Positions 33,336 through 35,274 of a DNA stretch of 64,000 bases are shown in pieces (position 1 is the stretch's first letter; the number at the start of each line of letters is the position of its first letter). The position numbers were made by a program, and so were the translations under genes. The DNA is from Candida dubliniensis CD36 (lineage: Eukaryota; Ascomycota; Pichiomycetes; Serinales; Debaryomycetaceae): assembly GCF_000026945.1 (NCBI RefSeq), contig NC_012866.1, positions 806,001-870,000 on the forward strand, written 5' to 3'. The notes under the pieces are model-generated. The model was given only the letters and a program-made list of their open reading frames with translations. It was not told the DNA's origin and ran no database searches.

Positions 33336-34031
33336 TCATTCATTAGTTCTTCTTCTTTTGTTATCTTTGTCACTATATTTCTCTCCATCCAGACCAAAAA
33401 TACTTCCATTGTGAAGATCGTCTGAATCATAATCAGCAACTACCTCTTCCATTTCAGAGAATTCAGATTTTTCAAAATAGGTATCACGGGCCAAGTACAC
33501 ACAAGACAAACGATACGAGTGCTGGGATATTTCTTTCAATGTATCACTAAATTCGTTGAGATTTAAAGAGAGCCCTTTGACTGCTTTCATTACTTTCCTC
33601 ACATCATGAGCATCCACATTCAAATTTCCTGTAGCCCTTTATTCTTAGTTTTCTTTTCTTATTCTTTTCTTCGTACATTGAAATCACAAATGGTGATATC
33701 AAACGAAGGTCACACTGACTTATGTCTAATACCTCCAATGATGATACTGGTAACTTAACCAGGTCTACTCTTTTCAAACGATTTCTCATTAGTGTCAATT
33801 TACGTAGGTTCTTCAACCTTTCAAACGATGCAAATAGCTTTTGTATTCCCATTTCCATTAATATTAGATATTCAACACTAACTGGGAAATAGATCAACAT
33901 CTAACCTTTTTATGTCACCCCCACTGATTCTAATTTCTCGAAGTCTAGATTCTTGTAAATTCAATAGCTCCAATGTTTCCTGATCAATATTAAAACCCTT
34001 TAGTGCAAAACTACCCAACACCATGGGCCAT
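33336..34031 (-). pseudogene. Truncated, frameshifted IFA-type LRR fragment (C-terminal third)
   Basis: Only the C-terminal part of the IFA-type family remains, from the segment WPMVLGSFALKGFN (right end, about 34031) through LDISQCDLRLISPF to the acidic tail and TGA at 33336. Two single-base insertions break the frame relative to the intact copies: an extra G in the run at 33883-33885 and an extra T in the run at 33638-33640. The missing N-terminal part is not found to the right; homology stops at about 34031, where polymerase-like sequence begins. Its right half matches the gene at 60560 almost word for word, and its left half matches the gene at 2390, so it is a mosaic. Confidence 0.9.
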
Positions 34032-35274
34032 GGAAAACTATTACAATCATTTTTTAAATAAAAATGTTGAATTACATATACCAGACACAGATGACTATGA
34101 TTTCATGAAAGAAGGAATATATGGAGGTAGAGTAATAGCAAATAACGGAATTTATGAAGAAGATATATTATATGCAGATGTAGTATCTTTATATCCAAGT
34201 AGTATGAAACTATTAAAACATGGATATGGAAAGCCAAAAAAGGTAACTGAAATAAATTGAAATCTTCATGGTATATATAAAGTTAAACTTACACATAAAT
34301 GTGATGAAGAACCAGAAGATTACATGAAATTTGTACCAAGAAGAATAGATGAAAGATCACATTGGGAGTGGTTTAAAGAACATGAAGGAACATACCATAC
34401 TTATGATTTATTAATTGCAAAAAGTGAGGGATTCAATATCGAAATTATAACTGGAATTGAGTATGAATATATAGGATATATATTTTCAGATTTTATAGAT
34501 GCATTATATTCGCTAAAAGAAAATCATAGTAATTGTAGTTGTGAACAACAACCATGCTCAATAAGACATATTGCAAAAATAGCGTTAAATGGTGGTGGAT
34601 ATGGAAAATTTGTTCAAAAACCAATTGAAATAGATATATACATAGTTAAAAGAGATATAGTAGCTGGTGAATTTGATAAATTAGAAACAGATGAAAATGG
34701 TTTCATAAATTTAAATGGATATAAAATAAAGAAACCTGAATTTTACAACTTAGATGGAGAAGAGTATGATAAAATGGTTATAGAAAAAATTCAAAAACCA
34801 ATATATGCAACGCAAAATGGTATTTCTATATTAAGTGGTTCAAGATATAGACTTTATAATTTATGTAAATCATTTAATGGAATTGATGTATTATATAGTG
34901 ATACTGATAGTATATTTATAAGAAAAGCAAGTATAGACTATGATAACTTTAAGAAAACATGTGGAACAGATATAGGAATGTTAGACGAAACAATTAAAAA
35001 TAGTAAAGATAATACAATAGAAAAATTAGTAATATGTGGACCTAAAATGTATGGATATACATATGTTAATAGAAACAATGAAAAGAAAACAAATATATAC
35101 TGAAAAGGTGTTCCAAAAGACATGATACGATTAGAGCATTTAGAAAAAATAGTAAAAGAAGAAAAAGAAGTACAGTACATATTTACAATTCTAAGAAAGA
35201 AACTAACAACTATAGACGAAAGAGAAATAGAAAAGAATGTTGGTGCAACAATGCTAGGAAAACGTATATTATAG
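34030..35274 (+). pseudogene. Family B DNA polymerase fragment (protein-primed type), palm to C-terminus, with two in-frame TGA codons
   Basis: One continuous frame of 415 codons interrupted only by TGA at 34258-34260 and 35101-35103, ending at TAG 35272-35274. Polymerase landmarks appear in the right order: YxGG-type GIYGGRV (34114-34131), motif A DVVSLYPSSM (about 34177-34206), motif B KIALNGGGYGKF (34576-34611), motif C YSDTDSIF (34894-34917) and a KxY-type GPKMYGY (about 35038-35058). The N-terminal exonuclease part and any terminal-protein region are absent; similarity begins at the junction with the broken IFA-type gene. Spacing and motifs fit protein-primed polymerases of linear plasmids, adenovirus-like and Maverick-like elements rather than the cell's own replicative enzymes. 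With TGA as Trp the frame would be intact, so this may be a captured piece of an element using that code. Otherwise it is a pseudogene with two nonsense mutations. Confidence 0.85.

Follow-up and report, generated by a model that had tools for sequence, protein, structure and literature searches.

A probable nuclear remnant of a cytoplasmic linear plasmid, with a decayed DNA polymerase and a TRF1 gene, in a broken IFA gene of Candida dubliniensis

How does a piece of a protein-primed family B DNA polymerase come to lie on a nuclear chromosome of a yeast, joined to the cut end of an IFA-type gene? The question is raised by a stretch of 64,000 nucleotides from Candida dubliniensis CD36 (contig NC_012866.1, positions 806,001 to 870,000 of the forward strand; hereafter the window, whose own numbering we use), in which the locus lies on chromosome C8 (1,022,435 bp) with argininosuccinate lyase and tRNA-synthetase genes at most 5 kb away. 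Our comparisons indicate that positions 34032 to about 35580 hold what is very probably a nuclear sequence of plasmid and viral origin (NUPAV), derived from a cytoplasmic linear plasmid of the autonomous kind, also called a virus-like element (VLE), of an ancestral Candida and captured by C8. It combines the features that define a NUPAV, namely homology to a plasmid, a location on a nuclear chromosome in continuity with nuclear sequence, and a fragmentary and degenerate copy. Two genes make up the captured DNA:

34032..35274, plus strand: C-terminal 40% of a VLE family B DNA polymerase (Pfam, homology and tree)
35294..35614, plus strand: open reading frame (ORF) of 106 amino acids (aa), homologue of the VLE terminal recognition factor 1, TRF1 (protein matches and genomic copies)

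We found 2 stops in the polymerase frame, read from 34006, where the two remaining forward frames hold 46 and 55; when the sequence was shuffled 1000 times by dinucleotides, even the best of its three frames kept at least 19 (mean 37). At the three codon positions GC content is 39, 27 and 12%, which indicates a coding pattern, within a fragment of 25.9% GC overall as compared with 31.5% for the window. When translated with TGA as Trp the fragment matches Pfam profile PF03175, put forward as a check in the initial annotation of this DNA, at E 1.7e-52, and a search of the genome contigs with the same profile (8 contigs, 14,618,422 bases, stops being read through and counted by the tool) returned a single place, the locus in the window (E 3.8e-52, with one TGA inside the match). 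Four of the motifs named in that annotation could be located at the DNA level, in order and in one frame:

34177..34206, plus strand: motif A, DVVSLYPSSM (translation, DNA checked)
34588..34611, plus strand: motif B, NGGGYGKF (translation, DNA checked)
34894..34917, plus strand: motif C, YSDTDSIF (translation, DNA checked)
35044..35052, plus strand: KMY, a KxY-type motif (translation, DNA checked)

The YxGG motif is looser than had been described: its region holds IYGGRV (34117-34134), as do intact relatives, and the literal YxGG is absent. The PF03175 match together with motifs A, B and C in order identifies the protein-primed type of family B polymerase, as first proposed. Moreover, the fold is closer to that of phi29 polymerase than to those of RNA-primed family B enzymes, at an identity of 16-18% between the fragment and the phi29-type protein-primed enzyme. 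Searching solved structures by sequence gave no match with the fragment as query; querying with a profile built from 20 relatives placed 12 of the 16 chains listed, of phi29 polymerase and polymerase alpha, at E values of 2e-4 to 8e-4. In PHROGs a 279-aa piece matched the DNA polymerase family phrog_1907 (4e-13) and one unknown family (0.05).

About 400 codons align to relatives without a frameshift, and the homologous span (34054-35268) corresponds to residues 600-1000 of the intact 1002-aa relative P0026, to which the fragment is 65% identical. Residues 1-599, comprising the N-terminal terminal-protein part and the exonuclease, are thus entirely missing from the captured polymerase, as the initial annotation had noticed; in VLEs polymerase and terminal protein are reported to be encoded by one gene (PMC8472843, PMC6831550). 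So fragmentary a polymerase also supports the earlier statement that the locus cannot replicate by itself. In fact the full autonomous VLE set (polymerase, capping enzyme, helicase, RNA polymerase and TRF1) is not present at the locus, and among ORFs of at least 80 aa between 34003 and 36204 none had a match except the polymerase pieces and TRF1.

From which group of elements did the fragment come? A tree and alignment were built from 26 of the 34 proteins P0002-P0035 (those left out, P0004, P0005, P0006, P0009, P0010, P0011, P0030 and P0033, are mostly short or partial, P0004 and P0005 excepted). In this tree the fragment falls within the clade of the 998-aa Debaryomyces hansenii enzyme A0A219YH69 (support 99/100), to which it is 57% identical. 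A remnant of a Maverick/Polinton, an adintovirus or a virophage would likewise bring a polymerase of the protein-primed type, and structural matches in a viral library do include the polymerases of bidnaviruses, adenoviruses and mavirus; however, the best of these matches reached E 5.6e-7 and the 11 at E <= 0.001 were only 12-18% identical, whereas the fragment shares 55-65% identity with the rows of the VLE clade apart from P0002. The neighbouring gene is TRF1, and no integrase or capsid Pfam domain was found in 12 sequences in and around the fragment, although so small a piece could lack them in any case. DNA-level kin were sought in IMG/VR using two alignments as well as the fragment, an intact relative and TRF1, which yielded only one distant locus, L020, at 23% identity, and kin of the fragment were found neither in bacterial and archaeal genomes nor in phage and bacterial plasmid records. 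We therefore regard a viral or Polinton remnant as extremely improbable. The source group is very probably the clade with the D. hansenii cytoplasmic linear plasmid enzyme and not a mitochondrial plasmid or a Maverick, which narrows the linear-plasmid or virus-like origin suggested at the outset to the cytoplasmic VLE group.

Within the cytoplasmic elements, a non-autonomous VLE of the pGKL1 killer type might be considered in place of an autonomous one, given that such elements can also encode a polymerase of ~1000 aa (PMC8472843) and that the tree took in no labelled non-autonomous VLE enzyme. The two types in D. hansenii share only ~29% identity, however, as against the 57% found here; 998 aa is the length of the autonomous enzymes and 999-1000 that of the non-autonomous ones (A0A219YH69 is labelled by length and species); and TRF1 is listed for autonomous elements (all PMC8472843). 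These points make a non-autonomous source very unlikely. Beside the clade that includes the D. hansenii enzyme we observed a branch of VLE-type DNA polymerases from Coemansia reversa and other Coemansia (P0012, P0018, P0024, P0029). Since this host is far from the yeasts, VLE-like elements may extend to early-diverging fungi; a literature search gave no mention of Coemansia with VLEs among the matches listed. Two further polymerase relatives look degenerate, P0003 with YSDTVSIF at motif C and P0007 without the motif B stretch, and are possibly NUPAVs of other species.

What has happened to the polymerase since its capture is suggested by two in-frame stops, which like the adjoining TRF1 ORF were not mentioned in the initial annotation:

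34258..34260, plus strand: premature stop 1, TGA, in the polymerase frame
35101..35103, plus strand: premature stop 2, TGA (codon 366), in the polymerase frame

We initially read this frame in the mitochondrial code, with TGA as Trp, and dropped that reading on the residues aligned with the second stop. If the source were a mitochondrial linear plasmid, both TGA codons would be original and encode Trp; both stops are indeed TGA, the rest of the frame is open, and in the column of the first TGA Trp is found in 11 of the 24 relatives having a residue there. In the column of the second TGA, by contrast, Cys occupies 16 of 26 rows and Trp 0 of 26, with Cys also in P0002, and a codon that is mostly Cys and never Trp among relatives points to decay and not to a TGA=Trp code. 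Furthermore, the sole clade relative with a named yeast host is the VLE-type D. hansenii enzyme, the adjoining TRF1 belongs to cytoplasmic VLEs, and mitochondrial-plasmid enzymes sit in separate clades (PMC8472843; our own tree took in no labelled one), so that a mitochondrial origin is highly improbable. Stops gained in the nucleus would explain both TGA codons.

That the piece was domesticated and is still useful as a polymerase, or through a short expressed product, might be argued from the presence of two stops only in 400 codons, the lack of any frameshift and a 259-aa ORF (34324-35103) that retains motifs B and C. Yet 60% of the protein is missing and the first stop separates motif A from motifs B and C, leaving no single ORF with the full catalytic set; because the catalytic motifs are divided between two ORFs, no product would be a working polymerase. 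Moreover, a variant of the fragment in another data set, P0002 (99% identical), departs from the window in three substituted residues, has Cys where the second stop stands and carries three extra residues. We think domestication scarcely credible and conclude, as far as sequence can tell, that the polymerase piece in its present form cannot function.

P0002 starts at the Met of the window ORF that follows the first stop (34324), and its final residues are identical. Given the common start and end, the simplest reading is that P0002 represents this locus as it stands in a different strain. The variant also bears on the assembly artefact that the initial annotation had named as a possible refutation. 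One assembly represents the window, and misassembly or contaminating plasmid reads might have produced the join; however, the TRF1 protein of the window is found on 6 contigs (some perhaps re-deposits of one assembly), P0002 has differences of its own, and plasmid reads would not be degenerate as the captured DNA is. From the 6 contigs and the P0002 variant it follows that the locus is probably not an assembly artefact, an explanation to which we attach very little weight.

Additional support for the origin comes through the second gene. The TRF1 ORF begins 19 bp downstream of the polymerase fragment on the same strand, and in VLEs the factor TRF1 binds the terminal repeats (PMC6831550; PMC8472843, table). 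Since both are genes of one element class, they point to the same source, either as neighbours in the source plasmid or as two pieces joined at capture. The TRF1 of the window is 67% identical to P0038, annotated as 'DNA-binding protein TRF1 homologue, putative, partial [Candida dubliniensis CD36]' and likewise on C8. A genome search located two further copies on this chromosome:

C8:231326-231622 (L027 4288-4626): TRF1 copy (genome search)
C8:733115-733414 (L026 4613-4945): TRF1 copy (genome search)

Homology of the window gene to these copies stops at ~35579, its last ~11 codons being without counterpart. All three frames are uninterrupted, and that of the 733k copy lacks a start codon. By counting over 84 codons, the three copies differ by 0.70-0.86 per synonymous and 0.11-0.17 per non-synonymous site. 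It is tempting to read this as retention of TRF1 as a nuclear gene in its own right, through repeated capture and selection, for example against plasmids by binding to their ends, while the polymerase decays. If TRF1 were so maintained, the host would be keeping a plasmid's end-binding protein. We nevertheless consider such retention unlikely, and the low non-synonymous rate may stem from time spent in the plasmid.

The coding cores of the 231k and 733k copies form an island of divergence between flanks that are far more similar: the cores differ at 56 of 249 bases (22%), the flanks at 12 of 109 upstream, 1 of 33 in the tail to the stop, and 9 of 69 and 10 of 169 downstream (3-13%). Apart from an inserted repeat these flanks occur at the two loci only (the counts are lower bounds), a pattern that might be explained if one site had been duplicated and had then received two captures, or if the flanks had undergone gene conversion. 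The repeat (~300 bp, L027 ~4728-5031, C8:231727-232030) lies between two common flank pieces, has copies of 95-100% identity at six other places and is probably another long terminal repeat (LTR). Rfam gave no match on the 231k and 733k TRF1 loci, and a tRNA scan found none within the window, L026 or L027.

How the plasmid DNA might have entered the chromosome is best seen at its left end:

33347..34031, minus strand: 3' part of an IFA-type leucine-rich-repeat (LRR) gene whose 5' part is missing (84-86% DNA identity to two IFA loci on C8)
34031..34032, no strand: left junction, where the IFA gene meets the captured DNA (IFA homology stops at base 34031)

The abrupt start at a cut IFA-type gene, reported in the initial annotation, is borne out by reading past base 34031 in 6 of the 12 other IFA places, since all 6 continue with sequence that is missing from the window. 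The IFA remnant itself is broken, with ORFs 33336-33623 and 33604-33900 in different frames, of which the latter has LRR Pfam matches and the former none. We suggest that cytoplasmic VLE DNA got into the nucleus and was, most likely, ligated there as filler when end joining repaired a break within the IFA gene, whose 5' part would have been lost in the same event. In the nucleus the AT-rich polymerase piece would have been released from selection and have gained its two nonsense codons, and would now be without function. Such a course agrees with a report that VLE genes may often become trapped by the nucleus, their high A/T content being tied to a nuclear expression barrier (PMC4431711).

Several observations weigh against this account of the locus. 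Only A0A219YH69 among the 18 rows of the clade has a named host, and it is tied to an autonomous plasmid by species and length, its accession being absent from PMC8472843. Gene order differs in D. hansenii, where polymerase and TRF1 lie on opposite strands. We saw no VLE terminal repeat, for which no dedicated test was run, and the ATNTGA promoter element is absent within 622 bp upstream of TRF1 on the TRF1 strand. Finally, the right end at ~35580 is set by loss of homology and not by an empty site. Beyond this end lie features outside the captured DNA:

35699..35820, plus strand: 36-bp minisatellite, 3.4 copies (repeat finding)
35842..36012, no strand: solo LTR of 171 bp (genomic copies and the 5-bp direct repeat AAAAC at 35837-35841 and 36013-36017)
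36204..38015, minus strand: intact IFA-type gene of 603 aa, the right neighbour (ORF and Pfam)

The solo LTR is a separate insertion, with copies on C5 (99%), C7 (96%), and C4 and C8 (84%), those on C5 and C7 being likewise flanked by 5-bp duplications; its near-identical copies on C5 and C7 suggest that the family was probably active recently. IFA-type genes recur along the window at 2387-4165, 5192-6402 (in pieces, in two frames), 36204-38015 and 60563-62338.

The NUPAV class has been known since 2009, when traces of such sequences were reported in 40% of 20 yeast genomes (Frank and Wolfe 2009, as described in PMC5499181), and the present locus adds a new member to it. The initial annotation knew of no description of the locus. 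This has to be qualified in that the class is described and the TRF1 homologue P0038 on C8 is named in the CD36 annotation, and otherwise stands: a literature search by titles and the start of abstracts found no publication about this locus among the matches listed, and it may nonetheless be in print. Similar to known NUPAVs, it is degenerate and AT-rich, a piece of cytoplasmic linear plasmid DNA lying within a yeast chromosome (PMC8472843, PMC4431711, PMC5499181); it differs in that two element genes lie adjacent in a broken IFA gene and in that three TRF1 copies lie on one chromosome. Immunity genes form the largest group among described VLE-derived NUPAVs (PMC4431711). With its source pinned by two genes, the locus provides direct evidence that a lineage near Candida albicans once met a cytoplasmic linear plasmid, very probably of autonomous type, and adds material on how often such plasmids enter chromosomes. 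With the autonomous VLEs of D. hansenii (pDH4C, pDH5B, pDH6B) and pGKL2 of K. lactis it shares a polymerase ORF, a TRF1 of ~105 aa and A+T richness, where the 57% identity refers to the D. hansenii enzyme and pGKL2 is likened by description only. Unlike the D. hansenii elements, the locus holds a fragment only, with polymerase and TRF1 on the same strand and 19 bp apart instead of on opposite strands.
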